A program made the position numbers and the translations under genes. Of a stretch of 47,688 nucleotides of DNA, positions 27,458 to 47,688 are shown piece by piece. Position 1 is the first letter of the stretch. Each line of letters opens with the position of its first letter. The stretch is taken from positions 1 to 47,688 of the IMG/VR virus record IMGVR_UViG_3300022699_000210; one strand, written 5' to 3'. Source of the DNA: a virus. The notes below the pieces were generated by a model. That model was not told the DNA's origin and did not search any database. It saw only the letters and a list, made by a program, of their open reading frames with translations.

Positions 27458-27865
27458 ATGGCCGAGATAGGAAGACGGTTTAGCTATGACGAGGAAGGCA
27501 AGCCATTCATGACCATTTTCCGGAAGATTGATCCGCATGGAAAGTTCTTTGGGATCAAGCAGGTCGAGGCTTGGAAGTTCAGTGAAGAGCACAACCCGCT
27601 CTTCATTTCCTCGATGTCTGACCTGGTGCAGCAGGCCTATGCGCATCTTGGCTTTCAGCTCCACGTTGGAGCGAGTATCTACAGGCGGCGTTTGGCTGAG
27701 ATGGCATCCGTGGTGCAGGAAGGTATAGATGATCTCATTGAGATGCCGCCCATGCCCAAGGATCCAGACGACGATATCATAGTTGGCGAAGGGGTCATGA
27801 CTGTCGGAGATCAGAAGTATTCTGTCGATCTGACGAAGGGGATGTTGAAAGATGGCAGTTTATAG
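27458..27865 (+). CDS. Hypothetical protein between terminase and portal
   Basis: A 135-residue protein; a TTG two codons upstream is possible, but ATG 27458 is preferred. It has a short beta-rich N half (GRRFSYDEEGKPFMTIFRK) and an acidic C half (MPPMPKDPDDDIIVGEGV). It overlaps the portal gene by 14 nt. No family recognised; likely a head-assembly helper. Confidence 0.5.
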   Translation: MAEIGRRFSYDEEGKPFMTIFRKIDPHGKFFGIKQVEAWKFSEEHNPLFISSMSDLVQQAYAHLGFQLHVGASIYRRRLAEMASVVQEGIDDLIEMPPMPKDPDDDIIVGEGVMTVGDQKYSVDLTKGMLKDGSL

Positions 27866-30137
27866 CAAACCTGGGGATTACCAGACCCAGAAGTCCTACG
27901 AGCCCGGTGGCCCTCCCATCATGTCCGAAGAGGACCTTCAGGAGCTGGAGAAAGCCAGCGAAAAGGTCCATCTCCTTGATCAGGAAGAGTACCAGCGGCG
28001 CTTGAGAAAGGCCCAGGAATGGTTCGAGGAAGCCAAGGAAGCCCTTTCCGATGCACGGCTCGAAGCGATCAAGGACCATGAATACTATGATCACTTCCAA
28101 TGGGATGAGGACGATGAGGCCCAGGTCCAAGCAAGGGGACAAGAGGCTGTCGTTTTCAACCAAATCGCGCCGGCCGTGGACTGGGTTCTGGGTGCAGAGA
28201 GGCGAACCAGGACGGACTTCTGGGTTTTGCCTCGCAGAAGGGAGGCTTCAGACAGCGCACAGTCAAAGCACAAGCTGCTCAAGTACGTCATGGACGTGAA
28301 CCTGATCAACCGGGAGCGCAGCCGCGCTTTCGAGGACTCGGTCAAGAGTGGCGTGGGCTGGCTCGAAACTGGCGTCAGGTCTGACATGACCCGGGAGCCT
28401 GTCTTTTGCAAGTACGAGGACTGGCGAAACATCTGGTATGACCCGCTGTCCAGGTCTCCTGATCTGAGGGACGCCCGGTATGTGTTCAGGGCCAAATGGG
28501 TGGACTTGGACATCGCCATGGCCATGTTTCCTGACCGGGCCAACAAGATCAAGGCCGCGGCCTATGAGAGCAAGACCTACTTCGAGGACGACATATTCAG
28601 CCCGGAAGATGAGGATATCGATGTTGATCTCGAAGCAGAGGTCAGTGACGCGCTCACAGAGAACAGGCGCAGTCGGGTTTTACTGGTCGAGTGTTGGTAC
28701 AGGGTACCGGCCAGGACGCAGGTTCTTCGCGGTCAGCTCCTGGGCATCATGGACGGCGAAGAGTACGACCCAGAGGACGAAGGCCACCAGATGCTGGTCC
28801 AGGGCAACCACGCCTCAGTGATCGATGCCCTGAAAATGCAGGTCAGGTGCATGATCTACACCGGAGACGCCTTGCTGCAGGACAGCATCAGCCCGTACCG
28901 GCATGACCGATTTCCGTTCATTCCGATCTGGGGCAAGCGGCGCAAGAAGGACAACACGCCTTACGGCATGGTCAGAGGCCTTCGGAGTCCGCAGGACGAT
29001 CTGAACAAGCGCCGGTCAAAGGCTCTGTTCATCCTGAGCTCCAACAGGATCGTGGCGGACGAGGATGCCACCGACGACTGGGACGGCCTCAAGGAGGAAG
29101 CCGACAAACCGGATGGCCTTCTGCTGAAGAAGACCGGCAAGGAACTGGAAATTTACAGCGAGACGACCCTGGCCGAAGCCCACACCAGGCTCATGGATCA
29201 GGACTCCATGTATATCCAGGATGCCTCCGGCGTGACGAACGAGAACCTGGGCAGGGACACCAACGCCACATCCGGCAAGGCCATCAAGGCCAAGCAGGAT
29301 CAGGGCGAAATGGTGACAAACATCTTTTTCGACCATTTGGCCGACTCTTTTCAGCTTGCCGGAGAGATCCTGCTCTCGCTGATCGAGCAGTTCTATGACG
29401 AGCCCAGAGAGGTCAGGATCACCGGAGACAAAGGCCGCTCTGAATGGCTGGAGTTCAACCAGCAACAGCGAGACGGCACGATCCTGAACGACATCACGGC
29501 CACCAAGGCTGATTTCGTCGTGGCCGAGCAGAACTACAACGAGAGTGTCAGGCAGTCCATGTTCGAGATGATGAGCGACATGATCACCAAGCTCGACCAG
29601 GAAGTGGCTCTGCAGATCCTCGACATGGTGGTGGACATGTCCGACTGGCCTGGCAAGGAGGAGATGGTCAACCGGATCCGGTCCATCAACGGCATGCCGA
29701 ACCCCTACGCCGACCCGGACGATCCCGAAGAGATGCAGCGGCAGCAGAAGTGGGAGCAGGCCCAGGAAGCCAAGAGAAAGCATGAAGAGGCTATGGCCCA
29801 GGCCGAGCTTGAAAAGATCACGGCCGAAGCCGAAAAGGCCAGGGCTGAGGTCCAGCACACCTTGCATGAGGCCGAGAAAACGCGCTATGAGGCCATCATG
29901 GAGCTGGCAAAGGTGGATACTGAAAAAGCCAAACAGGAAGCCACCAGGGCAGGGATCTCCTTTGACGAGGTCAAGCTGAGGCTGGAAAAGGCCAAGACCC
30001 TGCACGATATCAGGACCCAGAACAACGAGCAGAATGGTGAAAGTGGGCAGCCTGGCAAATCCTCTAAGACCAAAACGCAAGGGCCCTACCGAGAGCGGGG
30101 AATGAAGTCCAACAACAAAAAGAAGGCAACGGCATGA
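27852..30137 (+). CDS. Portal protein
   Basis: A 761-residue protein. The N-terminal wing and stem shows a helix-rich start, HEYYDHFQWDEDDEAQVQ, then FNQIAPAVDWVLGAERRTRT, the P22-type portal signature region, followed by a beta core with LVECWYRVPARTQVL and LLQDSISPYRHDRFPFIPIW. The C-terminal 150 residues (QRQQKWEQAQEAKRKHEEAM onward) form a long coiled-coil barrel rich in Glu, Lys and Gln, as in P22 portal. Twelve copies form the channel through which DNA enters. Confidence 0.9.
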   Translation: MAVYSKPGDYQTQKSYEPGGPPIMSEEDLQELEKASEKVHLLDQEEYQRRLRKAQEWFEEAKEALSDARLEAIKDHEYYDHFQWDEDDEAQVQARGQEAVVFNQIAPAVDWVLGAERRTRTDFWVLPRRREASDSAQSKHKLLKYVMDVNLINRERSRAFEDSVKSGVGWLETGVRSDMTREPVFCKYEDWRNIWYDPLSRSPDLRDARYVFRAKWVDLDIAMAMFPDRANKIKAAAYESKTYFEDDIFSPEDEDIDVDLEAEVSDALTENRRSRVLLVECWYRVPARTQVLRGQLLGIMDGEEYDPEDEGHQMLVQGNHASVIDALKMQVRCMIYTGDALLQDSISPYRHDRFPFIPIWGKRRKKDNTPYGMVRGLRSPQDDLNKRRSKALFILSSNRIVADEDATDDWDGLKEEADKPDGLLLKKTGKELEIYSETTLAEAHTRLMDQDSMYIQDASGVTNENLGRDTNATSGKAIKAKQDQGEMVTNIFFDHLADSFQLAGEILLSLIEQFYDEPREVRITGDKGRSEWLEFNQQQRDGTILNDITATKADFVVAEQNYNESVRQSMFEMMSDMITKLDQEVALQILDMVVDMSDWPGKEEMVNRIRSINGMPNPYADPDDPEEMQRQQKWEQAQEAKRKHEEAMAQAELEKITAEAEKARAEVQHTLHEAEKTRYEAIMELAKVDTEKAKQEATRAGISFDEVKLRLEKAKTLHDIRTQNNEQNGESGQPGKSSKTKTQGPYRERGMKSNNKKKATA

Positions 30138-30233
30138 AAAGGACTTGAAACTTACGCAATAATTCAATACTAGATTAAGAAAGCGACAAAAGACCGGCTA
30201 CTGGACGGCTCTCTTTATAAAGAGACTCCCCGA

Positions 30234-30288
30234 AGGCCCGGAGAGAAGATCACACGTTGTTGTGGGTCTTCTCTTCGGGCCTTTTTTT
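30234..30288 (+). terminator. Terminator after the portal gene
   Basis: AAGGCCCG-GAGAGAAGATCACAC pairs with GTGGGTCTTCTC-TTCGGGCCTT as a roughly 22-bp stem with a few mismatches or wobbles, loop ACGTTGTT, then a seven-T run. It ends the packaging transcript before the scaffold gene. A separate perfect palindrome CTCTTTATAAAGAG (30211-30224) lies just before it. Confidence 0.88.
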
Positions 30289-30308
30289 ATTGAGCAAAAG
30301 GAGGCTTT

Positions 30309-31304
30309 ATGGCTGACACATTCACTGAAGAAGAGCTTGAAATGATGAGTGAAGAGGAGAGGCAGGCTCTTCAGGACGAGGAAGAGTCGACTGAGGAGTC
30401 GGACCAGGAAACCGAAACCGCGGAGGAGCAAATTGCGGCAGAAGAGTCGTCAGAGGAAGAGGCAGAGGAGGAGGAGAGCGGAGAAGAAGGCGGCCAAGGA
30501 ATCGAACGAGAAACAGGCGACGAAGCCCATGAGCAGGTTTCTGTAGAGGATCAGGCTGCAGCCTCTGACCAGAGCGAGGACACCCATGAGACGACACAGA
30601 CGCAGTCAGAAAAGCACCAGGCATCTCAGGAACAGTCTGCGGACCAGAGCCAAACCCAGGACCAGGAGCAGGCCCGGGAGGACCCGGATGTGGACAAACG
30701 TCAGGAGCTGAACGATCGGCTCAAGGACGTCCAGCAGAAGTTCGATGAAGGCGAGATGGCTTTCGAGGACTACCTCGAGCAGCGGGACCAGATTAAGGAC
30801 CAGATCAAGGACCTGGACCTCACGGCCAAAATCCGGGCCGAGATGGAAGCCAAGTCTCAGGAGGACGCAGCCAAGGCTGCAGAGCAGCAATGGAACCAGG
30901 ACGTGGCCACCTTCAACACGGACAACCAGGAAGCCCTCAAGGATAAGGCCCTTTACAACACCTTCGTGAAGCAGGCCAACGCCAAGCTGGCCGACTCAGA
31001 CTTCGACAACATGGGCAACCGGGAGCTCCTGGACCAAGCCCTGAAGGAAGCCAAGGCCATCAACGGCTACAAAGAGACCCCGACCAATGATGAGGTGGCC
31101 GAAGCCAGACGAAAGGCCAACGCCAAGAAGAAAGAGCAAGCTGATCAAACGCAGACCCTGGGAGACGTTCCCTCGGCTGCGGATAACGATACAGGCAAAG
31201 ATGAGTTCGCTTATCTGGAAAAGCTCTCAGGTGAAGCGCTCGAAGAGGCCCTGGCAAAGCTCTCTCCTGAACAGGAGAAGCGGTATTTGATGGGTACAGG
31301 CTGA
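30309..31304 (+). CDS. Scaffolding protein
   Basis: A 331-residue, very acidic protein (long EEESTEESDQETETAEEQ-type stretch, residues about 5-110), then a helical part with KRQELNDRLKDVQQKFDEGE and YLEQRDQIKDQIKDLDLTAK. The C terminus is short and basic at places (EARRKANAKKKEQ). Position directly before the major capsid gene and the acidic-helical composition are typical for a prohead scaffold, which is removed before packaging. Confidence 0.85.
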   Translation: MADTFTEEELEMMSEEERQALQDEEESTEESDQETETAEEQIAAEESSEEEAEEEESGEEGGQGIERETGDEAHEQVSVEDQAAASDQSEDTHETTQTQSEKHQASQEQSADQSQTQDQEQAREDPDVDKRQELNDRLKDVQQKFDEGEMAFEDYLEQRDQIKDQIKDLDLTAKIRAEMEAKSQEDAAKAAEQQWNQDVATFNTDNQEALKDKALYNTFVKQANAKLADSDFDNMGNRELLDQALKEAKAINGYKETPTNDEVAEARRKANAKKKEQADQTQTLGDVPSAADNDTGKDEFAYLEKLSGEALEEALAKLSPEQEKRYLMGTG

Positions 31305-31401
31305 GGTTCCTCTACAACCCACCTGGTCAATAATACCGGGGCAAAGGCAGCGACCCACATCCTCAACCTCATGACAATCATCAAATACGACGGAGGCTAT
31401 C

Positions 31402-32499
31402 ATGTCTAAGACGATTATCGGAGTAAATGACCCGAAAGCAGTCAAGAAGTATTCGGCATTTCTTGCCGTGGACACCAACAGGAAGTCCTACTTCACCAAG
31501 AAGTACATGGGAGGTGAGGACAGCTCCATGCCCATCCATCGGCTCATGGAACTTGAGAATGACGCCGGTGAATACATCAGCTTCGACCTGTCTGTTCAGA
31601 TGAACATGCAGCCTGTGGAAGGCGACGATGTTCTGGAAGGCAAGGAAAAGAAGCTCAAGTTCTACACTGACGGTCTCTACATCGATCAGTTGCGCGGCGG
31701 TGTGAACAGCGGCGGGCGCATGACCCGGAAGCGGACAGTTCACGATCTCCGCAAGGTCGGCCGGAACCGGCAGTCTGATTGGTGGGCCCGGGTGTTTGAC
31801 GAGCTCTTCTTCATCTACCTGTCCGGTGCCCGGGGTATCAATTCCGAGTTCAACTATCCCACCAGCTTCACCGGTTTTGCCAACAACGCCCTTTCCGCGC
31901 CTGACTCTGACCACTTGGTGGTGGCTGCAGGAAAGGAAAAGGCCACGCTGACCGACAGCGACACCTTCAGCCTGGACATCATCGACAAGGCCAAGACCTA
32001 TGCGTCGATGATGGGCGGCTCCGAGGATGCGACCCCGAAGATCCTGCCCATCATGATCGAAGGGGAGAAGCACTATGTCGCGGTGATGAACCCCTGGCAG
32101 TCCTACAACCTCCGCAAGAGCACAGACTCTGGAGATTGGCTGGACATTCAGAAGGCCATTGCCACGGCAGTTGGCAAGCAGTCCAACATCATGCGCGGCG
32201 GCCTGGGGATGCACAACAATGTGGTCCTGCAGGAGCATGAATCCCTGATCCGCTTTGATGACTACGGTTCCGGGGACAACGTCGAAGCCTGCCGGGCCCT
32301 GTTCCTGGGTGAGCAGGCCGGCGTGATCGCCTTCGGCTCCCCGGGCACCGGGCTCAGGTTCTCCTGGCACGAAGAGACCCGGGACAACGGCAACCAGCTC
32401 ATCATCACCACGTCCACCATTGTCGGGATCAAGAAGGTCACCTTCAACGGCAAGGATTACGGCGTGATGGCTCTGGATACCGCAGCCAAGAAACCGTAA
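31402..32499 (+). CDS. Major capsid protein, N4-gp56 family
   Basis: A 365-residue protein. The starts and landmarks match the N4-gp56 family: SKTIIGVNDPKAVKKYSAFL, then YFTKKYMGGEDSSMPIHRLM, FDLSVQMNMQPVEGDDVLEG, VNSGGRMTRKRTVHDLRKVG, RQSDWWARVFDELFFIYLSG and NVVLQEHESLIRFDDYG. It builds the icosahedral shell (HK97 fold). The 97-bp gap ahead of it has no gene and may hold a promoter, but none is clear. A hairpin terminator follows. Confidence 0.93.
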   Translation: MSKTIIGVNDPKAVKKYSAFLAVDTNRKSYFTKKYMGGEDSSMPIHRLMELENDAGEYISFDLSVQMNMQPVEGDDVLEGKEKKLKFYTDGLYIDQLRGGVNSGGRMTRKRTVHDLRKVGRNRQSDWWARVFDELFFIYLSGARGINSEFNYPTSFTGFANNALSAPDSDHLVVAAGKEKATLTDSDTFSLDIIDKAKTYASMMGGSEDATPKILPIMIEGEKHYVAVMNPWQSYNLRKSTDSGDWLDIQKAIATAVGKQSNIMRGGLGMHNNVVLQEHESLIRFDDYGSGDNVEACRALFLGEQAGVIAFGSPGTGLRFSWHEETRDNGNQLIITTSTIVGIKKVTFNGKDYGVMALDTAAKKP

Positions 32500-32512
32500 G
32501 CGCGGGAGTAAT

Positions 32513-32547
32513 CGAGCGCACAGGATTGTTTTCTTGTGCGCTCGTTT
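32513..32547 (+). terminator. Hairpin terminator after the capsid gene
   Basis: CGAGCGCACAGG (32513-32524) pairs with TCTTGTGCGCTCG (32532-32544), 12 pairs with one wobble, followed by TTT. The T run is short, so it may be leaky, which would favour high capsid transcript and lower read-through. Confidence 0.6.
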
Positions 32548-32583
32548 GAGGATCCTCAATTTCAAATCACGCGGAGGTAAACC

Positions 32584-33030
32584 ATGCCTGTTTTCAATAG
32601 CGACATTTCTGGGTTTCTGTATCCCCCTGCAACCTCTTCGCAGGCCGGGGTGGTCCTGGCCAGCATTGCTGAGGCCTCTTTGCCGGATTCCCTGGCTGCA
32701 AACGACCTGGTCAAGCTGAACACGCTGCCGGCCGGTCACAGGCCCCTCGACTTTCAACTGGAAGCCGAAAGCCTGGACGATGGCTCTGGCATCACCATCA
32801 GCGTGGGTGTGCTCAATGCTGACGGTGACGACCTGGTTGCCAGCACCAACTTCATCACCGACGACACCGTGGCCCAAGCAGGAGGCCTGAAGCGGGCTGA
32901 TGTTGTTGCCGGTCTCGGCCTGGCCGAAAGCACCGAGGACCGGGTGATTGCCGCCAAGATCACCACTGTGGCCGCTACGCCGGCTGCGGGGGCACTCCGG
33001 GGCAAACTGCTCTACGCGGAAAACGCCTAA
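32584..33030 (+). CDS. Capsid-associated protein (probable)
   Basis: A 148-residue protein starting behind GGAGG. It is a beta-rich, acidic-neutral domain (FNSDISGFLYPPATSSQAG, GITISVGVLNADGDDLV, AAGALRGKLLYAENA). Position after the major capsid gene suggests a decoration or head-completion protein. It ends before a hairpin terminator. Confidence 0.55.
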   Translation: MPVFNSDISGFLYPPATSSQAGVVLASIAEASLPDSLAANDLVKLNTLPAGHRPLDFQLEAESLDDGSGITISVGVLNADGDDLVASTNFITDDTVAQAGGLKRADVVAGLGLAESTEDRVIAAKITTVAATPAAGALRGKLLYAENA

Positions 33031-33045
33031 CCTGACCCCAGGCTC

Positions 33046-33077
33046 AAGGGTGGGGCTCTCCAGCCTCACCCTTTCTT
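33046..33077 (+). terminator. Hairpin terminator
   Basis: AAGGGTGGGGCT pairs with AGCCTCACCCTT (12 bp, one G-T), loop CTCC, followed by TCTT. It lies right after the decoration-like gene. Confidence 0.7.
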
Positions 33078-33093
33078 CAGCAAAGGAGACACC

Positions 33094-33513
33094 ATGCTCA
33101 TCGAGTGCAAGATCAAGCGCGAGGGCCCCACGCATGTGACTGTGGCCGGCTTTGACTACGTCTTTGCCAAGAACGAACACGGTCACAAGGTCTGCGAGGT
33201 CCTGAGCTCAGACCACCAGAGCTATTTCCTGGAGCTCAAGGACTTTGTCTTATACGAGCCCCCGAAAAAGCCGACTCTGGAGGTCCAGGAAAAGCCCAAG
33301 GAAGAGGCTGTTGTTGATTCTGAAATCACAGACCCTCAAGAAGATCCAAAAGTGGAAAACACCGATGGTTTGATTCTCAATGCCAAGGGCAACCCTTTTG
33401 CCAACGAGGCTGCCGCCAAAAGGGCAATGACCAGATATTATGATGAACACAGCGTTTTCATTGTTCCCTATGAAAACGGATATGCCCTCCAGAGGAAGGA
33501 CAGTGCTGAATGA
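33094..33513 (+). CDS. Small protein with a domain also repeated in the giant protein
   Basis: A 139-residue protein starting behind AAAGGAG. The N-terminal part is a beta sandwich (FDYVFAKNEHGHKVCEVLS), then a Lys/Glu/Pro linker, then NPFANEAAAKRAMTRYYDEH and FIVPYENGYALQRK. That C-terminal alpha-beta unit has the same pattern as two tandem units in the protein that starts at 41827 (KKEAQKEANRL then GGYILQP). It overlaps the adaptor gene by 4 nt. Perhaps a virion linker protein. Confidence 0.55.
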   Translation: MLIECKIKREGPTHVTVAGFDYVFAKNEHGHKVCEVLSSDHQSYFLELKDFVLYEPPKKPTLEVQEKPKEEAVVDSEITDPQEDPKVENTDGLILNAKGNPFANEAAAKRAMTRYYDEHSVFIVPYENGYALQRKDSAE

Positions 33514-34154
33514 ACACCAAGGATTTATTAAACAAGGTCCAGCTCAAGCTCGAAGATGATTCCTACACCAGGCGCAATCTCTTGGAGCGCATGAACAATG
33601 GTCTTGTCTATGTCGCCGGCCACATGCCCCTGCCCAAGCTGCAGGTCACGGCTGACGTGGACACCGTGCTGGGCCTGGACTTTGTGGCAATGCCGGATGA
33701 TTTCCAGCACAACCTCTTCTCTGTCTACAACGCTTCCAGGTCATGGAAATGCACGATTCTCTACAGCCGGCGCACCATGGAAGAGCTCTTTAACCGTCCA
33801 GATGAAGATGGCCCGGTCAGCAATGTGGTCGATGAGGGCGATGTCCTTTACTACCGCCGGATCCCAAAAGAAATAGAAACCCTGACCCTGAAGTACAACG
33901 CTTTCCCTGCGGCCCTCCTAGACCAGAACGACAGCGTTCCTGAGTGCCTGCCCCGAAACCTGCACGAACATCTCCTGGTCAACTATGTCCTGGCTGATGT
34001 CTTTTCCGAGATTGAGGACGGCATCGACGGCGCGAAAACCAACACTGACTTCTACTGGAACGAGTTCCTGAGCTCCTACACTTCGCTCGAAGGGTTCTAT
34101 CCGGGCGTTGCCAGGACAAAGCGGTTTATCCCCCGCAGGATTTCGTTCTTCTAA
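33510..34154 (+). CDS. Head-tail adaptor or connector protein
   Basis: A 214-residue protein. It starts with a helical part MNTKDLLNKVQLKLEDDSYT, then RRNLLERMNNGLVYVAGHMP, and continues with mixed beta strands (TLTLKYNAFPAALLDQNDS) and LPRNLHEHLLVNYVLADVFS. The position after the capsid block and the fold pattern suit the P22 gp4-like adaptors that attach to the portal. It overlaps its upstream neighbour by 4 nt. Confidence 0.7.
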   Translation: MNTKDLLNKVQLKLEDDSYTRRNLLERMNNGLVYVAGHMPLPKLQVTADVDTVLGLDFVAMPDDFQHNLFSVYNASRSWKCTILYSRRTMEELFNRPDEDGPVSNVVDEGDVLYYRRIPKEIETLTLKYNAFPAALLDQNDSVPECLPRNLHEHLLVNYVLADVFSEIEDGIDGAKTNTDFYWNEFLSSYTSLEGFYPGVARTKRFIPRRISFF

Positions 34155-34163
34155 AGGATTCAC

Positions 34164-34364
34164 ATGTCCGAGCAAGAAAAAGAGCACACACAGGAGTTGA
34201 ACGAGAGGATTCAGCAAGTGGTCAACCGGATGGCGGTCCTGGTGGGAGCCTATCACGCTCAGGGGCTCTCCGGTGAGATGCGCTTCAGGATCCGGTTCGA
34301 GGACGGCGAGGTCACGGACAACGGATATGAAGAAGCCATACGCCCGAGGCTGAACGATGGCTAA
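34164..34364 (+). CDS. Small virion-region protein
   Basis: A 66-residue protein: a helix (QELNERIQQVVNRMAVLVG) followed by RFRIRFEDGEVTDNGYEEA. Its beta half mirrors that of the 24869-25066 product. It overlaps the next gene by 8 nt. Role unknown. Confidence 0.5.
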   Translation: MSEQEKEHTQELNERIQQVVNRMAVLVGAYHAQGLSGEMRFRIRFEDGEVTDNGYEEAIRPRLNDG

Positions 34365-35265
34365 GACGAAGCGGATCTTTGCCGGCGCGACTGGGCTGAT
34401 CACAAAGACGGATCCTGTCCGGGCAGGGATCGACTGGAAGTCTCTCCTTGTCGATCTGCCTGTGGCCGTCAATATCGACATCTCTGATTCTTACAGGCCA
34501 GGCCGAAGGAAGGGTTATGTTCAAAAAGTCTCTACGCCGGCTCACTCTGTTTTCTGCGATGGCGGCCATTGTCTGCTCGTATGTGGTCCTTACCTCTGCC
34601 GGCTGGCTTCTGACTATTCGATGATCCCAATTCACACCCTCATGTTTCCGGATGCGAAGATGCGTTATGTGCAGGTAGGAGACGAGATTTACTTCTCGAA
34701 CACACATGACTTGGGCATCTACGAGAATGGGGCGGTCAAAGCCTGGGCTGCAGGAGAAACCCCGGAAAACTGGCAGCAGGCAGGATACAACTTCCAGGAC
34801 CCTTTGCCGGCGCGGCACCTGGAGTATTACAACGGCCGGCTGTTCCTCGCGTATTCCAACTATGTGATCTATTCGCAGGAATGGGCCTACTCCTGGTTTG
34901 ACCGCCTGCACAACACCCTGCCGTTCAGGGGCAAGGTGAGGATGATCAGGCGCACCACAGACGGCCTCTATGTGGGCAATGACCAAGGGGTTTTCTTTTG
35001 CGGCGGCGCTGGTCCTGACGAGTTCATGGTCAGACAGGTCGCTCAGGAGCCGCCTATCGAGCATACCGATGTCCGGGTCCGAATCGAGGACTTCCTGGAA
35101 TCGAGCGGAGAGGCGGCAATGTGGACTTCAAAAGCGGGTGTGTGCTTTGGAGGGCCACAAGGCATGTATATCAACCTGACCGAGGACAGGGTGGACCTGC
35201 CGCCGGCGCTCAAAGGGTGCGCGGTGGTCAAGGACCGGAACTATCTGAGCATCCTCAAACTGTAG
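34357..35265 (+). CDS. Tail stabilisation protein, beta-propeller-like (gp10-type)
   Basis: A 302-residue protein with repeated short strands and turns: VFCDGGHCLLVCGPYLCRLA, RYVQVGDEIYFSNTHDLGIY, HLEYYNGRLFLAYSNYVIYS, TTDGLYVGNDQGVFFCGGAG, EAAMWTSKAGVCFGGPQGMY. Four-stranded blades arranged like that, next to the adaptor, resemble the propeller-type tail stabiliser of podoviruses (P22 gp10 style). It caps the portal/adaptor and holds the genome. Confidence 0.6.
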   Translation: MAKTKRIFAGATGLITKTDPVRAGIDWKSLLVDLPVAVNIDISDSYRPGRRKGYVQKVSTPAHSVFCDGGHCLLVCGPYLCRLASDYSMIPIHTLMFPDAKMRYVQVGDEIYFSNTHDLGIYENGAVKAWAAGETPENWQQAGYNFQDPLPARHLEYYNGRLFLAYSNYVIYSQEWAYSWFDRLHNTLPFRGKVRMIRRTTDGLYVGNDQGVFFCGGAGPDEFMVRQVAQEPPIEHTDVRVRIEDFLESSGEAAMWTSKAGVCFGGPQGMYINLTEDRVDLPPALKGCAVVKDRNYLSILKL

Positions 35266-35286
35266 CATCCTTCGGAGGTAAGACTT

Positions 35287-36030
35287 ATGGCTCTCAGGCT
35301 TTCCACAGGGCTGCGAAACGCTCTGCTTGATAAGACCCCGCAGTTTTCAGACTTGAGCAAGCTCATCGTGGACGCTGCCGGGAACATGGACTTTGTCCCT
35401 TCAGGGTCCAGCGGATCCGGGAACCCGGAAATTCAGAACACGGTGGACGATCTCAGCGTGTTCGCTGCCGGGGATATCGTTCAGGTCTACGGCTCGGCCA
35501 GCAATGACGGCACCTATGTCGTGACATCGGTCACTGCCGATACCCTGCAGGTCCAGGAAGAGGTTGTCAGCGAGACCGGCCAGACCTGCTTCCTTGGGGT
35601 GGTCCATGGCGGCGCTCTCAAGGACATCTTCAAGAACGGCGTCATGAAGATCTTTGCCGGCAGCCAGCCCGCGTCTGCGAGTGAGGATGAGAGCGGGTAC
35701 ACCGAGCTCTGTCAGATCACCATGGGAAGCGGCGCGTTCACGGCCAACCAGGGCCAGAACGGCATCAACTTCGGGGATGCTGCAAACGGCACCCTGACCA
35801 AGAAGGCTGGAGAGACCTGGTCCGGGACAAACGGTGCTACCGGAGTGGCCGGATGGTTTCGGTTTTACTCAAACGCCATGGACACCGGGGCTGAGTCGGG
35901 CGGCGACAAGGTGCGCTTTGACGGCGCGGTGGCTACCAGCGGCGCTCAGTTGAATATGAGCTCAACCTCTCTGTCGAGTGGTGCGACAACCACGATCACC
36001 AACTTCTCTGTCTCACTGCCCTCTTCCTAA
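35287..36030 (+). CDS. Tail or appendage structural protein
   Basis: A 247-residue protein beginning MALRLSTGLRNALLDKTPQF. It has NTVDDLSVFAAGDIVQVYGS with TYVVTSVTADTLQVQEEVVS (one small beta domain), then IFKNGVMKIFAGSQPASASE, and a Ser/Gly/Thr-rich C-terminal beta part. Similar proteins occur in many phages just after head-tail joining proteins; no exact role. A strong terminator follows. Confidence 0.6.
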   Translation: MALRLSTGLRNALLDKTPQFSDLSKLIVDAAGNMDFVPSGSSGSGNPEIQNTVDDLSVFAAGDIVQVYGSASNDGTYVVTSVTADTLQVQEEVVSETGQTCFLGVVHGGALKDIFKNGVMKIFAGSQPASASEDESGYTELCQITMGSGAFTANQGQNGINFGDAANGTLTKKAGETWSGTNGATGVAGWFRFYSNAMDTGAESGGDKVRFDGAVATSGAQLNMSSTSLSSGATTTITNFSVSLPSS

Positions 36031-38869: not shown

Positions 38870-40375
38870 ATGGTTCAAATAGTTGAAGTATGGGGCGCGG
38901 GTTCAAACCCTGGACAGATCCCGATTCTGACGGCCGAGTTCACTGACTTTCAGGCCGGGCAGTTGGTCAACCAGCGATTCTCGGACGCCCTGACCTATGC
39001 CGAAGGGGTGCGGGAAAAAGCACTCCTGCAGGCCCAGAAGCTGGTTGACCTGGGAGACTTTGACTTCATCGACAACCTCATTGGTCAGGAGGACAACAAG
39101 CTGGAGTTTGACGACTTCAGCATCGAGCCCGGAGACCTGGAACCAGGCACCTATGACGATGAGGACGTGACCCTCGACGCCGGCGAAAACCGGGTCTTTT
39201 CCTTTGACGAGGGGCTGTTTGACGGCATCCCTTCCATGTCAGCCAGTGACATCCCGGACGGTGACGACATCTATGACCCCCCTCAATTCGAGCAGGTCCT
39301 TTCAGACCAGGTGGAGGACATCGGGGATCCTTCCGCGCTTCCCATCGGGTTTGACGACCCCTATTTGCCGGATCTCAAGAACAGGCTCCTGCAGGAGTTC
39401 ATGGACAGCCTCGGAGAGACGGACGGATCCTATGCCCCGGAGGTCGAGCAGGCCATCTATGACCGGGCCAGGAACAGAAGGAAAACGGACCTGCAGGACA
39501 AGAAGGACGCGGCTTACAACGACTTTGCCAAGAGAGGGTTTCCAGCTCCCCCTGGGGCCCTGTTCAGGCTCATCGAGCGCTATGACATCGAGGACCACCG
39601 GGAAGAGACAGACCTCAACGCGGACATCATGAGGCTGCAGGCCGACCTTGTGCGGCAGAAATACGAATTCATTGTCTCTTCAGGCCTGCAGCTCGAAACC
39701 AGCTTGCTCGAGCGGGCTCGGCAGGTGGCCTCGAACACCCTGGAAAAGTCCAGGCTGCAGGCACAGCAGGCCCTGGACATCTACAACGCGGAGCTTCGCG
39801 GCGTCGAGGTTCATGCCTCGGTGCTGCAGAGCGATGTGGCTTTGTTCGCGGAAAAGGTCCGGGCTGAGACGGCCAAGCTGGAAGCTTTCAAGACCAGGCT
39901 TTCCGGGATCACCAGCAAGCTCGACCTGGAACGGCTCATCGTTCAGATCCAGCAGGAAAAGCGGCAGACCAAAGTGGACAAGTACAACTTCCAGCTTCAG
40001 AAGGACCGGTTCGACCTGGAGAAGGCTCAATCTGAAAAGAACCTGCAGCTCGATCACAAGCGGGTCTCCAACGACGTGAACCGGATGATCATGGAAGGTG
40101 ACAGGCTCAGGTTCGACGTGCAGCGGTCCATAGCAGAGTTCAAGCAGACCAAGTACCAGCAGGAGATCGACATCGCCCTGCAGAAGCAGAACCACAAACG
40201 CGAGATAGCGGCCACCACGGCCAATATCCTTGCCCAGCTTGCTGCCTCGGCTCTGACCGGTGTGAGCGCGTCTGCTTCCATGAGCGGGTCTCAGTCCGAC
40301 TCTGCCAGCAAGAGCTACAGCACCAGCATGAGCCGCAACGACAGCGTGTCCACAAGGGTGGAGAACACTGAATAA
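38870..40375 (+). CDS. Helical internal or tail virion protein with Ser-rich tail
   Basis: A 501-residue protein. The first 200 residues are acidic and partly disordered (EDVTLDAGENRVFSFDEGLF). Then come long helices with Gln/Glu/Lys heptads (about 215-450: QVASNTLEKSRLQAQQAL, IVQIQQEKRQTKVDKYNFQL, HKRVSNDVNRMIMEGDRLRF). The C terminus is Ser-rich (MSGSQSDSASKSYSTSMSRN). Long coiled-coil proteins at this place are often ejected into the host during DNA entry. Exact role is inferred. Confidence 0.6.
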   Translation: MVQIVEVWGAGSNPGQIPILTAEFTDFQAGQLVNQRFSDALTYAEGVREKALLQAQKLVDLGDFDFIDNLIGQEDNKLEFDDFSIEPGDLEPGTYDDEDVTLDAGENRVFSFDEGLFDGIPSMSASDIPDGDDIYDPPQFEQVLSDQVEDIGDPSALPIGFDDPYLPDLKNRLLQEFMDSLGETDGSYAPEVEQAIYDRARNRRKTDLQDKKDAAYNDFAKRGFPAPPGALFRLIERYDIEDHREETDLNADIMRLQADLVRQKYEFIVSSGLQLETSLLERARQVASNTLEKSRLQAQQALDIYNAELRGVEVHASVLQSDVALFAEKVRAETAKLEAFKTRLSGITSKLDLERLIVQIQQEKRQTKVDKYNFQLQKDRFDLEKAQSEKNLQLDHKRVSNDVNRMIMEGDRLRFDVQRSIAEFKQTKYQQEIDIALQKQNHKREIAATTANILAQLAASALTGVSASASMSGSQSDSASKSYSTSMSRNDSVSTRVENTE

Positions 40376-40387
40376 CAGGAGAGCACT

Positions 40388-41818
40388 ATGGCAGCCCCTT
40401 TCTACAACCCCAATTACTATGGTGAGGATGTTTTCCGGGAGAGGCAGAAGAGACAGCTCTCCAAGAGGGAACAGGCCAGCCGGATCAAGGTCAAACCGGA
40501 GACCACTCGAAACACGAACCGGCCGGAAGCGGTTGTCGGCATGAATGACCGCTTCATGGGCAAGACGACCAGGGAGCCAAAGCGGCCATCCTTTCGGCAT
40601 GTGCCGGCCATCTCCGAGACGCCGAGCAGTCAGGCCATTGTCAACAATGTCCCCTCTACGGAGCAGGCAAGCGGCGGGCCCGAGACCCCCTACGTCAACC
40701 AGCTCCTGTCTGATCTGTGGAACAGGGCTGGGCAGGCCTACCAGAAGTCCAGACAGGAGGTCGAGCAGACCCTCGGCCAGGTGAGAGCTCCACTGCCCGG
40801 GACAGGATCTCAGAATCAAAGTGCGACACCCCAAAGTGCGGCAAACCAGGACACGCCAGGACAAGGCACCCGAAGCGCCAATGCTGCACCCCCGCCAAAT
40901 CGGGATCCACAGGCAGCAAACCAGGACAATAAAAATGTCGCACCTTCATCCCTTGACAGCCAAGGTGTTCCTGACCGTGGACAGGTCACGCCGCCCTTTG
41001 GAGTCGGGCCCCAGAGGCAGCGCTCAGTCATGGCTATCGACCCCGAGACCGGGCAGATGAGGCAGGTGGCCCCTGGGGAGTCTCAGAACGAGGTCCGTCT
41101 GATCCAGGAACCCGGCAAGGTGCCCATGATCACCAACAAGGCTTTCGAGGGAGATCTTGCCCAGAGAAGGAGCACTGGAGGTCCCGGGCGCGGACAAGGA
41201 CCTGGCGGCGGCAAGTTCGCTGGGGATGGCTACTACATACGCGGCCAGCACACCAGCCCCCAAGACATTGACCAAAGGGCCCGGTCTGAACTGGCCCGGG
41301 AAGAAACCCAGAACCAGGCTCTGATCCCTGAAGATCGAAGGCAGAACGACATCAACCAGCTCCAGGCCAACCTGGCCTATATGCGAAGCCGGCGAAGGAT
41401 GAACCCGGAAATGAACCCTCCGGGCCTTGAGAAAGACATCAAGGCAACAGAAAAGCGGCTCAAGCAACTGACCTCGGCCGGCAGGGAACAGGAACTGCAG
41501 CGCCTGGCGAACAGGGGAGACATCGAGCAGCAAAGGCTTGCAAGCCAGTCCGATCTGGCAAGTGCTCAGGTCGAGGCCCGGACAGACCTGGCAAAGCGCC
41601 TGTCCAAAAACCAGCTGAAAGAAGTCGAGTCTCAGCGGGAGATGCGCGGCAATGCCATGGACTATGTCAATGAGGCCTGGGAAGCCCTGCCCTTCGAGGA
41701 AAAGCAGCGGTTGCAGTCAGACGTCAAAGCCTACCAGCAATGGAGGAAAAAGACCTACTGGGATTACTACGACAACGTGAACAACTTCCAGCACCTGCCA
41801 AACCCTGACGAATACTGA
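40388..41818 (+). CDS. Gln/Pro-rich internal virion-type protein
   Basis: A 476-residue protein. The first 90 residues are basic, then comes a long low-complexity stretch (about 135-220, with Gln, Asn, Pro, Ser and Gly), and last a helical C domain (about 300-450, DIKATEKRLKQLTSAGREQE, DLAKRLSKNQLKEVESQREM, YVNEAWEALPFEEKQRLQSD). It lies between the helical protein and the giant protein and may be an ejected partner of both. No enzyme motif. Confidence 0.55.
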   Translation: MAAPFYNPNYYGEDVFRERQKRQLSKREQASRIKVKPETTRNTNRPEAVVGMNDRFMGKTTREPKRPSFRHVPAISETPSSQAIVNNVPSTEQASGGPETPYVNQLLSDLWNRAGQAYQKSRQEVEQTLGQVRAPLPGTGSQNQSATPQSAANQDTPGQGTRSANAAPPPNRDPQAANQDNKNVAPSSLDSQGVPDRGQVTPPFGVGPQRQRSVMAIDPETGQMRQVAPGESQNEVRLIQEPGKVPMITNKAFEGDLAQRRSTGGPGRGQGPGGGKFAGDGYYIRGQHTSPQDIDQRARSELAREETQNQALIPEDRRQNDINQLQANLAYMRSRRRMNPEMNPPGLEKDIKATEKRLKQLTSAGREQELQRLANRGDIEQQRLASQSDLASAQVEARTDLAKRLSKNQLKEVESQREMRGNAMDYVNEAWEALPFEEKQRLQSDVKAYQQWRKKTYWDYYDNVNNFQHLPNPDEY

Positions 41819-41826: not shown

Positions 41827-44800
41827 ATGAAAAGTCTGGAGAATTACCGCAAGGCCCTCTCGAAGCAGAGAGGCTACGATGTGGGCCCCGATGAGGCAGC
41901 TCAACTCGCCTTCAGGGCGTCCAAGAAGAGGCGCCGCGACGACACTTTTGAGTCCTGGGCCAAGAGAGAAGGCGTTGACAAACAGCTCAAGCAAAGACCT
42001 ACCCCTGAACCCAGACAGAGGTTGCAAGAGGACCTGGCGAAGCGGCCAGACGTAGCCAAGGAACGAGGCCTGGTCGGTGATATCGGTTCGCGTTTGGCGC
42101 GGGGTACGGCCAGGGCGGCCGAGCTCGGCGGGTATGCGCTGCAGACCATGGATCCGGAGGGCGGCATTGAGCTGGCCCAGAGAGCCGGTGAGTCCATAGT
42201 GGGTGCCACCGAGCAAGCCAGAGAGGACTGGGATGTCCTGAAACCGGATGTCTCCGAGGCCAAGGGTGAAGAGGGCTTTGTCGAGCGCGGGATCAAATCC
42301 GGTATCGAGAGTGCGCCGGCGTCCATCTCTCCCGCCCTGATCGGCGGCGCTGCAGGTGCTCCGTTTGGTCCTGCAGGCGTTGCCATTGGTGCCGGCCTGG
42401 TAACCCTTGGGCTTTTCGGTGCCGGTGTCTACGGCCAGTCGCGGGCAGAGGCCGAGGAAAAGGGCCTGACCGAAGATAAGGCTCACAAGTATGCCCTGAC
42501 CCAGGCGGCCATCGAGGGTGGTGGAGAGACCGTCTCCAACATCATCGGGACCATGACCTTCGGGATGGGCAAGCTGGCGACACAGCCCCTGAAGCAGACC
42601 GCGAAAGAGCTCCTGGAAACGCCGATGTCCACGCTGGTCAAGCAGATCGGCAAGAACGCGGCGTTCAACGAGATCCCCACGGAAATACTGCAGGAAGGCG
42701 CTCAGGCCTACTACGACGAGAAGTATGGCATCAGTGACGTGTCCTGGCAGGACGCTGCCAAGGAAGCGATCATTCCGGCCATGACCATGTCCGTCCTCTT
42801 CGGGCTCGGCGCGGAGACGTTCAACACCGTCCAGAAACGAGGCATCAAGCGGAAGCTCAACAGCAAGAACCCCAAGGACCGGGTTCAGGCCGCCAACGCC
42901 ATAGCCAAAAGGCTCAGGCACGAGCACAAGGACAGCCCTGAGCTGGCTGACGCCTGGGTAAAGATGGCTCGGGAGAGGATCGAACAGAATCAGACCATTG
43001 ATCTTCATGAGAACTTCGTCACCTTTGCCGAACAGAAGCGCCGGGAAGAGAAGCAGCAACAAGGCCAGGAAGGCTACCAGCCCCCCGAGGACCTGCAGAA
43101 AGAGACAGACCCGGAAAAGCTCGTCACTGGCGGCAAAGAGACAACTCCGGAAGAGATCCTGAGCGAAGAGGACATTGAGTCCATCTCTGAAGAGACCCTG
43201 GATGCAGCCATTCAGAATCAGCAGGAGCAGGAAGCTCAGGCCGATGAGTTTGGGATGCCTGGCGGGGAGCTGGACTATCAGCCCCAGGAGCAGGTCTACA
43301 CCAGCAAGAAAGAGGCACAGAAGGAAGCGAACCGCTTGACCAGGGAAGGCCGGCCGCAGAAGGTCACACAGGTCGAGGGCGGGTATATCCTGCAGCCGGC
43401 GGGCAGGCAGGTCGAGCAACCAGCCAAAGAGCCCGAGAAAGTGGAGCCAATTCAGGTTGAGTCTGAGAAGCCCAAGGATGAGAAGGCCAAGCAGGAAACG
43501 GTCAGGGCCGAGGGAGCAGTTGAACCCGGTTCACAGACCTGGGTCCAGGACCAGGCCGGTCAAGGCCGGTTCGGGACCAAAAAGGAAGCCCAGAAAGAGG
43601 CAAACCGGCTCACCAAGCAGGGCCAGCCCCATGACGTGATTCAGGTTGGAGACAGGTACGACATTCAGCTCAGGGGCAAGGCTGCACCCAAGAAAAAAGA
43701 GGAAACGGCAGCCAAGGGCAAGAACCCTCTGAAGAACATTTATCAGCATGTCAAGAGGAAAGAGGACCAGGTCGAGCCCAACAGCCCGTTTGAGAGGGTG
43801 GATGCTCCTGAAGGATGGACCCAGACAAACGATAATAGCTACTTGGCTCCATCAGGGAAGGGTGGAGTCTATGGACATATAAACGGGGGTTGGGCTGCTC
43901 ATGCCGCCGGAAAACACAAACGATTCAAAAAGGGCGGCAACACGACAGTGAACCTGTTGAAAGCAATGCAGTGGGTGGAAAATCAGGAAAGCAAAGTTGC
44001 CGAGAGTGGCAAAGCCTCTCCTCAGGCTTCAAAGCCCAGGAGGAAGGTGGAAAAGAAGCAGCCTGCCAAAGCGGAGAAGAAAAAATCAGACACTTCAAGG
44101 GGTGATGTTTCAGAAACGGAGGTTTCCGGGGGGCACAGTCAGCTCCCGGAGGGGTCAGAGCACAAGGAGCCGAAGGAAAGGAGCGGGGCCACCCGTCCTG
44201 GACCACATCAGGAAACGGGTGTTGAAGGTTCGGCTTCCGCCCGAGGTGGTCGACTCGCCGAATCCCACCAGGGATCCCCAACCCCTGGCTCAAATGTACC
44301 AACAAGCATACGGACCAAGGGAAGTGAAAGTCAAGCTCCTGAATGGTCTGGGCCGGAAGAGGTCGTGCATCACGCCGTGGACGAAGCAAAGGCCATGGGG
44401 CTCATCGACGAGGACACGCATGCCCTGATGAGCGGTTTTGCCGAGTTTTTCCCCCGGAGCATGGCCGAAGACCTGGAGAAGTATTTCGAGCCGCGGGTAT
44501 CGGAGCAGGAGTTCAGAGCCACGGATGAGCAGCGCAAGGCTGTTGGGATCGCTGCAAGCGAGCAGAACGAGGCCACAGTAAGAGCCTATCTCCAGGAAGA
44601 AAAAACCGGCGAGCTGCACAAAGACGCCAAGCATCTGGCTGTGCTTCTCAAGGGCGGGAATTCGGCGGACTTTGTTCATGAGTTCGGAGAGTTCGCGTAC
44701 ACCCGCCTGCTGTCCGCTCAAGACAGGGCGGCCGTCAAGAAGGCCTACAAGGCTGACAAGGCCAGAATCCAGAAGGCCAAAAAGTCCGGGAAGGCAGGCA

Positions 44801-47688
44801 AAAAGACATCGGCGCCGTTTCCGAAGGAAAATGAATGGTTCTCGCAAAAATGGACCGATTGGTTCATCCAGCAGAAGAAAACGCCTCAAGGCCTCAGAGG
44901 AGTCTTCACCAGAATGGCCGATGCCCTGCGGAAGACGGTGAGGCAGTTCTTTGCCAGCGGGAGGATCGACAGGAACATGGCTGCCCTGTTCGAGGACATC
45001 GTGACCAGCGGCAGGCAGGTCCGCCACAAAAACGACTACTACTACTCAGATGAAGAGATGCTGCGCAACTACATCATCGGCCGTCCTCCAAAGCCAGAGG
45101 AGCTCAAGTCGCAAGGCATTCACGGCAATCAAAAGACAGGCTTTTCGGTCGACTTCAGCACCAGCTGCCCGAGGCAGATGGAGTTCACGAACTATCTGCT
45201 CAAACAGGTCGAGGAAGGCGGACTGCCCGAAAAAGAGCTCCTCAATCCGGACAATCTGGATGCCCTGTACGAGCAGGCCGTCCGAGACGGCATCGATGTG
45301 CCGTGCAGCTACTGCTACGTGGAGCAGGCCAGGAGAAAGGCCATTGCCTGGCACCATGAGGGAAAGAGAAAATCCCAGGTCGTCTTTGCCCAGGCCAAGC
45401 ATGTGTACCGCGAATCCCTGGAGTACGAGGACCTGCTCCTGAAAATTCCAGAGAGGGATCCCAATCCGGACAATCTCAGCGTGGAGAACATCAACAGGCG
45501 GGGAGGTCTGAGGATATTCTCGTTTTCAGACTATATCCGGGAGAGGGACTTCAAGCAGATACAGAGGCTTCTGGACCATGCCGCGAAGCGGGGCATCGGG
45601 GTGAAGGTCATCACCAAGCAGGAGGACTTCATTACCGACTGGGCCGACACCGGGATCCTGATCAACATCTCCATGGACCAGCATGTCCAGGGAGGCCCGG
45701 GTGCCGGAATGGCATGGAAGCAGGCCATTCGGCACAAAGAGCGATATCCGAACATCAAACTGCGGACTGTCGCCAGGAACATGGACGAGGTGGATCGGTA
45801 CAACAGGATGATGTACCGGCAGCGGGACGAGGAGATCGAGCTTCTCGATCCATGGACCGTGAAAGGGAAGGACAAGCTGCCGGACAAGCCAGACCCCGAA
45901 TATGAGGGCCGCTTGCAGGAAGGAGGGTGGAGGCACGTTTTCGACGTGATCACGCCTTACCACAAAGAGTCGCCCAAGGAAGTCGTGGATCCGGGGTACG
46001 AGGACATGGGCCACAAGCATCGGACCCTGGTCGAATATTTGAGAGACCATCCGGAGACCGATCAACGTTTCTGCTGCATGACCAAGGGCAAATGCTGGCA
46101 TCCGTCGGAAGGGCAATGCCTGACGAACTGCGGCCTTGAGAAGGGAAATCTGCATGTTCCCAAGCTGGCCGGCCATCTCAAAGGAATCAAAGGAGCTCCA
46201 GCCTATCGCCGCAAGAATTCTCCGAGCGGAAAAGGCCTCAAGCGGGAAACCGTCCAGAGCCGGATCGACGCTCTGACAGCCGGGCTGGCTGCTGACCGGC
46301 TGCCCGGGATCAATGTCTACCAGTCCGAATCCGAGCTTCCCAAGCCCATCCTGGAGGACATGGCCATGCGCCAAGCCGAGGGCGATGTGGAGGCCGCCTG
46401 GTGGGACGGAGAGATCCATTTCATCAGGGACAATCTGATGTCCCAAGCCAGAGTGGAGCGGGCCCTGGTGCACGAGCTCTTTGGCCACGTCGGGCCGGAG
46501 GCCATCCTGGGAGACCGAGCGGACAACTTCTATATGAGGGTCTTTCTAGACAAGCCGCGAGAAGCCCGCCAGGTGGCGCACGAATATGGGCTGGATCTGA
46601 AGAATCGCGCGGACAAGATCGCTACCGGGAAGGAGGTCGTGGCCAGGATGGCCGAGAACGGCCAGGAGGACTGGATCCTGGATCGGATCATCGCGGCCGT
46701 CAAGGATGTTCTTCGCCGGGCAGGGTTCCGGCTCGAGATTTCCGACGCCGAGATCAGACAGCTCATCGCAAGGGGGAAAGGACAGCTTCAGGGCAGGAAT
46801 GCCGGTCGGGGGCTGTCAGGAATCAAGGCCGCGGCCTTCAAGCAGCAAGAGCCCGTCTTCTACTCCCAGATGCAGAAAGTTCTGAACGACAAGTTGCCGA
46901 AGAGGGGCAGTCCGGACAGCTACAAGACCATGATCCAGTCCTTTGCCAGGAAGGGGCAGTTCAAGCAGGAAGAGCTCGAATGGTCCGGGATCGAAACCTG
47001 GCTCGGCGAGCAGGCGGACAAAGTCGCGAAGGACCAGATCCTGGACTACCTGAAGGCGAATCAGATCCAGGTCCAGGAGGTCGCGAAAACCGGGCCTACA
47101 GAAACCAGGTATGAACAGTATCAGCTCCCGGAAGGAGAGAACTATCAGGAAGTACTCTTGACCCTGCCGAGAAAGGACAAGCCGACGTTTGAAGAGTGGA
47201 TAGCCCATTGGGGCCGGAGAGGGTTCCTTGGCACAGAAGAAGACGCTCGCGGGATGTATGAGGTTGATATGGCCTATGGAGGGGGAGAAGATGTCGGCTA
47301 TACATCCCCGCACTGGAACGAACCAAATGTCCTGGCTCATGTCCGTTTCAACGAGAGATACGATCCGCAGGGCGACCGGGTACTTTTTGTGGAAGAAATC
47401 CAAAGCGACTGGCATCAGGAGGGGCGCAAAAAAGGATATCAGAGGCACTACCAAAAAGGCGACAGGGTTCCTGTTGGCCATGACCATGGAACAATCGTCG
47501 ACCCGGATCCAGACGAAAATGGATACATCAAAATCGAGTTCAACGGAGAGGTTGAAAAGGTCCTGGCTCGATATGTCGATGATGCAAGGACTCCAGACGC
47601 ACCATTCAAGACCACATGGCCCCTGCTGGTCATGAAAAGAATGTTGAGGTATGCGGCCGGGAACGGCTTCGACAAATTGGCCTGGACG
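41827..47688 (+). CDS. Giant polyvalent virion protein (partial, runs off the right edge)
   Basis: One open frame of 1954 codons with no stop, starting at ATG 41827. Segments in order: an N-terminal basic part; a Gly/Ala-rich hydrophobic segment (about 155-200: SPALIGGAAGAPFGPAGVAI); two tandem alpha-beta units (about 490-525 and 582-617, both KEAQKEANRL); a disordered Lys/Pro/Ser linker; a helical part; then a cysteine region with C1114, C1160 and C1163 (VPCSYCYVEQ) and GLRIFSFSDYI plus AKRGIGVKVITKQ, resembling a radical-SAM barrel; a second Cys cluster CCMTKGKCWHPSEGQCLTNC (1416-1435); a zincin-like HELFGH (1549-1554); and a C-terminal domain (EGENYQEVLLTLPRK, PNVLAHVRFNERY, EEIQSDWHQEGRKKGY) known from large phage polyvalent proteins, cut by the edge. 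It is probably injected to act on the host or on phage DNA. Confidence 0.85.
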   Translation, partial: MKSLENYRKALSKQRGYDVGPDEAAQLAFRASKKRRRDDTFESWAKREGVDKQLKQRPTPEPRQRLQEDLAKRPDVAKERGLVGDIGSRLARGTARAAELGGYALQTMDPEGGIELAQRAGESIVGATEQAREDWDVLKPDVSEAKGEEGFVERGIKSGIESAPASISPALIGGAAGAPFGPAGVAIGAGLVTLGLFGAGVYGQSRAEAEEKGLTEDKAHKYALTQAAIEGGGETVSNIIGTMTFGMGKLATQPLKQTAKELLETPMSTLVKQIGKNAAFNEIPTEILQEGAQAYYDEKYGISDVSWQDAAKEAIIPAMTMSVLFGLGAETFNTVQKRGIKRKLNSKNPKDRVQAANAIAKRLRHEHKDSPELADAWVKMARERIEQNQTIDLHENFVTFAEQKRREEKQQQGQEGYQPPEDLQKETDPEKLVTGGKETTPEEILSEEDIESISEETLDAAIQNQQEQEAQADEFGMPGGELDYQPQEQVYTSKKEAQKEANRLTREGRPQKVTQVEGGYILQPAGRQVEQPAKEPEKVEPIQVESEKPKDEKAKQETVRAEGAVEPGSQTWVQDQAGQGRFGTKKEAQKEANRLTKQGQPHDVIQVGDRYDIQLRGKAAPKKKEETAAKGKNPLKNIYQHVKRKEDQVEPNSPFERVDAPEGWTQTNDNSYLAPSGKGGVYGHINGGWAAHAAGKHKRFKKGGNTTVNLLKAMQWVENQESKVAESGKASPQASKPRRKVEKKQPAKAEKKKSDTSRGDVSETEVSGGHSQLPEGSEHKEPKERSGATRPGPHQETGVEGSASARGGRLAESHQGSPTPGSNVPTSIRTKGSESQAPEWSGPEEVVHHAVDEAKAMGLIDEDTHALMSGFAEFFPRSMAEDLEKYFEPRVSEQEFRATDEQRKAVGIAASEQNEATVRAYLQEEKTGELHKDAKHLAVLLKGGNSADFVHEFGEFAYTRLLSAQDRAAVKKAYKADKARIQKAKKSGKAGKKTSAPFPKENEWFSQKWTDWFIQQKKTPQGLRGVFTRMADALRKTVRQFFASGRIDRNMAALFEDIVTSGRQVRHKNDYYYSDEEMLRNYIIGRPPKPEELKSQGIHGNQKTGFSVDFSTSCPRQMEFTNYLLKQVEEGGLPEKELLNPDNLDALYEQAVRDGIDVPCSYCYVEQARRKAIAWHHEGKRKSQVVFAQAKHVYRESLEYEDLLLKIPERDPNPDNLSVENINRRGGLRIFSFSDYIRERDFKQIQRLLDHAAKRGIGVKVITKQEDFITDWADTGILINISMDQHVQGGPGAGMAWKQAIRHKERYPNIKLRTVARNMDEVDRYNRMMYRQRDEEIELLDPWTVKGKDKLPDKPDPEYEGRLQEGGWRHVFDVITPYHKESPKEVVDPGYEDMGHKHRTLVEYLRDHPETDQRFCCMTKGKCWHPSEGQCLTNCGLEKGNLHVPKLAGHLKGIKGAPAYRRKNSPSGKGLKRETVQSRIDALTAGLAADRLPGINVYQSESELPKPILEDMAMRQAEGDVEAAWWDGEIHFIRDNLMSQARVERALVHELFGHVGPEAILGDRADNFYMRVFLDKPREARQVAHEYGLDLKNRADKIATGKEVVARMAENGQEDWILDRIIAAVKDVLRRAGFRLEISDAEIRQLIARGKGQLQGRNAGRGLSGIKAAAFKQQEPVFYSQMQKVLNDKLPKRGSPDSYKTMIQSFARKGQFKQEELEWSGIETWLGEQADKVAKDQILDYLKANQIQVQEVAKTGPTETRYEQYQLPEGENYQEVLLTLPRKDKPTFEEWIAHWGRRGFLGTEEDARGMYEVDMAYGGGEDVGYTSPHWNEPNVLAHVRFNERYDPQGDRVLFVEEIQSDWHQEGRKKGYQRHYQKGDRVPVGHDHGTIVDPDPDENGYIKIEFNGEVEKVLARYVDDARTPDAPFKTTWPLLVMKRMLRYAAGNGFDKLAWT

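Follow-up and report, generated by a model that had tools for sequence, protein, structure and literature searches.

A new family of radical-SAM-like domains, probably related to phage GP88 and DUF5131 proteins, in a giant phage protein of the polyvalent type

The DNA analysed here (the window) is an entire IMG/VR virus record of 47,688 bases, and it ends in a giant open reading frame that combines virion-gene surroundings with a region of clustered cysteines in which a radical-SAM-like enzyme had been proposed. The question raised by this locus is whether that region is a genuine domain of the radical-SAM type and, if so, what a phage might use it for. The genes that define the setting are as follows:

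25328..36030, + strand: packaging and head genes (small and large terminase, portal, major head protein, Hc3-like connector, head proteins)
38870..41818, + strand: two upstream ORFs of the virion module, both without Cys (501 aa, phrog_10969; 476 aa, Q/P-rich, no match)
41827..47688, + strand: giant ORF of 1954 aa, last gene of the virion module, its 3' end cut by the end of the record

The packaging and head genes place the giant ORF in the virion module. Since the frame runs to the end of the record without a stop codon, the protein is incomplete, and no extension of the cut 3' end was found among the contigs searched. The whole giant protein has no family match in Pfam, PHROGs, NCBIfam or the PDB sequences. 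Its terminal part, residues 1672-1954 (window 46840-47688), matches parts of the giant phage proteins of two other contigs (L022 and L040); judged by its sequence, this stretch with the motif EEIQSDWHQ is a further shared polyvalent segment that has no Pfam name. Before the terminase lies a 1200-aa ORF (window 20940-24542) with weak matches to beta-propeller and PQQ-repeat proteins and a match to phrog_20852, of unknown function.

The giant frame contains eight Cys residues, all of them within residues 1114-1435. The peptides on which the original prediction was built are located where it had placed them: DFSTSCPR at residue 1109, PCSYCYVEQ at 1159, GLRIFSFSDYI at 1227, AKRGIGVKVITK at 1253, CCMTKGKCWHPSEGQC at 1416 and HELFGH at 1549. 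Its count of 46 positions from C1114 to C1160 (45 residues between) is likewise correct. The features of the domain are:

45130..46146, + strand: radical-SAM-like domain, residues about 1102-1440 (from family alignments, a model of residues 1060-1470, and a compact homologue model with Foldseek)
45166..45168, + strand: C1114, the first core Cys, invariant in 23 homologues
45175..45300, + strand: extra residues separating core Cys 1 from core Cys 2, modelled as helices (8-9 residues there in compact members)
45304..45315, + strand: C1160-S-Y-C1163, the CxYC part of the predicted SAM-cluster motif, with invariant Tyr
45505..45534, + strand: GLRIFSFSDY, strand 2 motif, where GP88 has FRIHWDGDFF and DUF5131 has FVNSMSDLFH
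45583..45618, + strand: AKRGIGVKVITK, strand 3 motif, ITK invariant (LTKR in DUF5131, YTR in GP88)
45661..45678, + strand: INISMD, strand 4 motif, S and D invariant
45943..45963, + strand: DVITPYH, strand 6 motif, His invariant
46072..46131, + strand: C-terminal Cys cluster, C1416, C1417, C1423, C1431 and C1435

The clustering of all eight Cys would arise by chance with a probability of 5e-7 for one fixed 322-residue span, a figure that does not count the choice of the span. Five homologous giant ORFs (L003-L007, 1591-2625 aa) contain exactly eight Cys each, in the same layout of three plus five and all in the homologous domain. Because this layout recurs, it is a conserved pattern of putative metal sites rather than a chance motif, and chance clustering of the Cys is ruled out by the conservation. 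The C-terminal Cys cluster is possibly an auxiliary Fe-S (or Zn) site.

Direct sequence searches of the domain against Pfam, PHROGs, NCBIfam and the PDB gave nothing above chance, and single-sequence scans for close relatives recovered no family. Moorella phage MTATph1 provided a distant match, a standalone gene of 231 aa (28% identity, E 5e-8), and the two-sequence profile made from it and the window opened the family, retrieving viral contigs and three MAG loci, and in the next round about twenty more contigs. The 23 aligned members are 28-42% identical to the window; the 23-row alignment used for structure prediction leaves out one row from the phage collection. Invariant in the 23 members are, among others, D1109, C1114, C1160, Y1162, C1163, Y1164, V1165, R1229, D1235, K1260, I1262, T1263, K1264, S1282, D1284, R1313 and H1379, together with four of the five C-terminal Cys (C1416, C1417, C1423 and C1435). 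The fifth, C1431, is substituted in the group of L020, and the Moorella phage protein has Gly at position 1417. We conclude that the domain represents a real and new family.

The family is rare, with one member in 50,697 records of sequenced phages and none in the plasmid search. Among 26 genomes of the genus Desulfobacula, as among 248 genomes of the phylum to which a Cyclobacteriaceae MAG belongs, only the genome already known to carry the domain matched, so the family is not widespread in either group. A 12,712-aa open frame around the Desulfobacula homologue (L012, MAG contig 111963-150098) was discarded as an artefact, being mostly a masked run of N. In a Bacillota MAG, a standalone member (L013:1650-2303) has neighbours that look like FAD oxidoreductase and spore-germination genes, so that some members may be chromosomal. 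A divergent member (L040:2158-12228) has the core CX9CX4C (CPMMTVGLHGCYIDGCYV) and keeps the C-terminal cluster as CC...C..C...C, which indicates that the core motif tolerates change.

The original prediction had pointed out that the first Cys lies too far from the others for the usual CxxxCxxC. This is borne out, and the distance corresponds to an insertion of about 40 residues that the compact homologues are without. The distance from core Cys 1 to core Cys 2 is bimodal, with 8-9 intervening residues in the standalone and most podoviral members, for which the consensus is D[FLIM][ST][TS].C-X8-9-CxYCYV, against 45-56 for the window group and 52 for the T4-like one. Therefore, the odd spacing of the window is accounted for by the insertion, whose residues are modelled as helices within the loop between strand 1 and helix 1. 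In the tree, the window and six other giant carriers form a group (support 100/99), the mid-size carriers of T4-like phages another and those of podoviruses a third, and the standalone members group at 93/90. Two giants, L022 and L038, fall outside the giant-carrier group of this unrooted tree, implying more than one gain or loss of giant carriers.

Kinship with the phage families Gp37/Gp68 (DUF5131) and GP88 had been suggested from the order of the motifs, and our profile comparisons agree, as the similarity to both exceeds the shuffled controls. Against DUF5131 the profile-profile score is 33.0 (best of 60 column shuffles, 22.4; reversed, 12.0), with CxxCY and [IL]TK in register; against GP88 it is 35.3 (best of 60 shuffles, 21.3; reversed, 15.0), with the strand 2 motif, ITK/YTR and S.D in register. 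The hhalign P values are 9e-4 for DUF5131 and 3.6e-4 for GP88 at probabilities of only 23% and 37%, respectively; these probabilities being low, kinship with the two families is supported and membership in them unproven. Neither the window protein nor the aligned family members have an hmmscan match at the gathering score of GP88 (PF17338) or DUF5131 (PF07505), and GP88 has no genome-level match in 13 carrier records. A GP88 search of 247 genomes found mostly DUF5131 genes.

Radical-SAM enzymes are recognized by three Cys, a partial barrel and an aromatic residue in the CxPhiC motif. In the window domain, C1114, C1160 and C1163 follow strand 1 with an invariant Tyr in the CxYC, in the spacing CX8-56CX2C across the family instead of the classical CX3CX2C. 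AlphaFold models of the window domain (residues 1060-1470, 23-row alignment; pLDDT 85.8, pTM 0.84) and of a compact member of 244 aa, L036 (pLDDT 87.4, pTM 0.86), both show alternating strands and helices with the three core Cys between strand 1 and helix 1. The order of secondary structure, together with the Foldseek ranking of the compact member, points to a partial (beta/alpha)6 TIM barrel. Its best match in the PDB is the pyruvate formate-lyase activating enzyme 3cb8 (E 1.9e-4, probability 1.00, TM 0.49), viperin 5vsm has E 1e-3, and 22 of the best 50 matches are radical-SAM chains, the others being mostly ordinary TIM barrels. The window model has no PDB match below E 1e-3, probably due to the insertions; ThiE heads the list, and viperin, SuiB and EpeE are among those below it. 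Among viral models its first match, at E 2e-9, is a probable homologue, an uncharacterised phage protein; the other viral matches are not significant, and several Fe-S, gene-88 and Gp37/Gp68 proteins are among them. The PF04055 profile has no match in the window record, while controls match in 14 of 14 genomes. The fold check that had been proposed for residues around 1080-1450 thus yielded a TIM-barrel-type match, by way of the compact homologue, and at the level of predicted models this match, the leading position of radical-SAM enzymes for that homologue and the placement of the Cys loop support the radical-SAM idea.

One might suppose instead that the domain is a TIM-barrel enzyme with a Cys-bound metal and that its likeness to radical-SAM proteins is convergent, as ThiE, TIM and FMN-binding glucuronidases fill much of the fold-search lists and ThiE leads that of the window model. 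We regard this as very improbable, because radical-SAM enzymes come first for the compact member, and the agreement with GP88 and DUF5131 in Cys placement, CxYC and motif order exceeds that of shuffled profiles. We therefore favor, as a likely though not secure reading, that residues about 1102-1440 constitute a new (beta/alpha)6 radical-SAM-like family near GP88 and DUF5131, situated in a virion-associated polyvalent protein of the ejection type.

A fold derived from radical SAM need not have kept the radical chemistry. The Cys might serve zinc or a structural Fe-S center, and the domain might act as a module for binding or scaffolding within the ejection protein. Radical-SAM enzymes do not usually have insertions in the cluster loop, no GGE motif like that of classical members is present, and dead domains do exist in the window protein, as seen from the upstream one of the two zincin-like segments around the domain:

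44677..44691, + strand: HEFGE, degenerate zincin motif of the upstream domain, residue 951
46471..46488, + strand: HELFGH, downstream zincin-like motif of HEXXXH form, residue 1549

The window, L003, L004 and L012 have HEFGE as the upstream motif, L005-L007 have EEFGY, and L022 has an intact HELGH. Since the second His is lost, the upstream zincin of the window is probably inactive. HELFGH, in a region without Pfam match, had been described as zincin-like; the motif stands as the HEXXXH variant, a zincin clade described for polyvalent proteins (PMC5512222), and not as HEXXH. According to the same source, zincin fusions are ordinary in polyvalent proteins. Returning to the radical-SAM-like domain, the core Cys, the aromatic residue of CxYC, ITK, SxD and His are invariant even where members have diverged strongly, standalone genes among them. 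This points to a conserved active site and makes the loss of chemistry improbable.

The domain is carried by giant proteins of the polyvalent type, in podoviral internal-virion-protein cassettes, in T4-like baseplate cassettes and as standalone genes. The carriers of the homologues differ, while their positions are alike. The giant ORF of the window encodes a large multidomain protein in a virion gene neighbourhood, as in polyvalent proteins, and its relatives contain ART-PolyVal (L003), LPD38 (L004, L006) and a methyltransferase domain directly after the radical-SAM-like domain. The L020 homologue lies between the internal virion proteins phrog_418 and phrog_6651, and in L022 a single gene separates the homologue from a phrog_418 protein upstream. 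The domain gene of ten T4-like contigs is followed by a gp25-type wedge gene and preceded by the baseplate hub (and PAAR where found). In 10 of 11 such contigs a tRNA nucleotidyltransferase gene is just upstream (further away in L030). For example, in L025:2939-7044 the nucleotidyltransferase and the radical-SAM-like protein are encoded between a PAAR protein (hub) and gp25/gp6-type baseplate genes. The two proteins are placed in the T4-like contigs as if they were baseplate cargo. In L028:1-2049 and L037:2966-5227 the nucleotidyltransferase gene is split by about 710 bases, possibly by an intron or a homing-endonuclease insertion.

From this gene order, and from it only, we infer the packaging and injection of the giant protein. 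Alternatively, a true radical-SAM-like domain might never be delivered, the giant protein acting in the producing cell during assembly or late infection. Standalone members (L008, L014 and the Moorella phage) lie outside virion modules, with no common neighbour in their gene context, so the activity would not need packaging. However, the window and the podoviral carriers occupy internal-virion-protein positions, the T4-like carriers belong to a baseplate cassette, and for polyvalent proteins injection has been predicted (Iyer et al. 2017, PMC5512222). We consider action confined to the producing cell rather unlikely.

In the delivered, catalytic reading that we prefer, S-adenosylmethionine would be bound and cleaved at a [4Fe-4S] cluster coordinated by C1114, C1160 and C1163, with an auxiliary cluster near the substrate on the C-terminal Cys group. 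The protein would be carried in the particle and enter the host with the DNA, where the domain might carry out a radical-based modification. As to the target, RNA, and tRNA in particular, is a tentative first guess, weakly suggested by the linked tRNA nucleotidyltransferase gene and by the methyltransferase that adjoins the domain in relatives. The nucleotidyltransferase linkage is confined to the T4-like branch, and it is a lead and not a proof because the nucleotidyltransferase is common in phages (418 records). A protein or peptide, as the second choice, seems doubtful, and nucleotides are less likely still. It is conceivable, somewhat short of an even chance, that several unrelated kinds of phage package and inject a radical-SAM enzyme and thereby make a radical-based change to RNA, protein or nucleotides of the host as soon as infection begins.

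If our reading is right, a radical-SAM-like domain would join the known phage-delivered activities, as an additional type of catalytic domain for polyvalent proteins and a family new to Pfam, PHROGs and NCBIfam. The uncharacterised phage families GP88 and DUF5131 would also be tied to a common fold. Our literature search returned no report of radical SAM in a polyvalent protein; the words radical SAM, cysteine and iron are absent from the main text of PMC5512222, and the jumbo-phage survey PMC7824862 makes no mention of radical SAM. The compact form of the family, at 220-240 aa, suits bench work.

Among known systems, GP88 (PF17338; mycobacteriophage D29 gp88 and relatives) is a phage protein similar in size to the compact members, and its motifs run in the same order as theirs: a Cys group with CY after it, then FRI..GDF, YTR, S.D and a C-terminal Cys cluster. 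It differs in its core, which is CX6CX3CY in D29 but CX8-56CX2CY in the domain family, and the GP88 proteins examined are standalone, unlike the family members in virion-associated giant proteins. DUF5131 (phage Gp37-Gp68, PF07505) has CX6CX2CYAE, FVNSMSD, LTKR and GVSVE in the order of CX8CX2CYVE, FSFGDY, ITK and NVSID of the family, whereas the full-length DUF5131 members examined are without the C-terminal Cys cluster. With the radical SAM superfamily (pyruvate formate-lyase activating enzyme, viperin, EpeE) the domain shares the predicted partial TIM barrel and three Cys, the CxYC among them, in the loop between strand 1 and helix 1, but its Cys spacing is longer than CX3CX2C, PF04055 does not match, and the TM-score is about 0.4-0.5. 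The likeness to the phage polyvalent proteins (PMC5512222) is found at the level of the whole gene: the window has a giant multidomain protein among virion genes with zincin-type domains, and its relatives carry the ART-PolyVal, LPD38 and methyltransferase domains.
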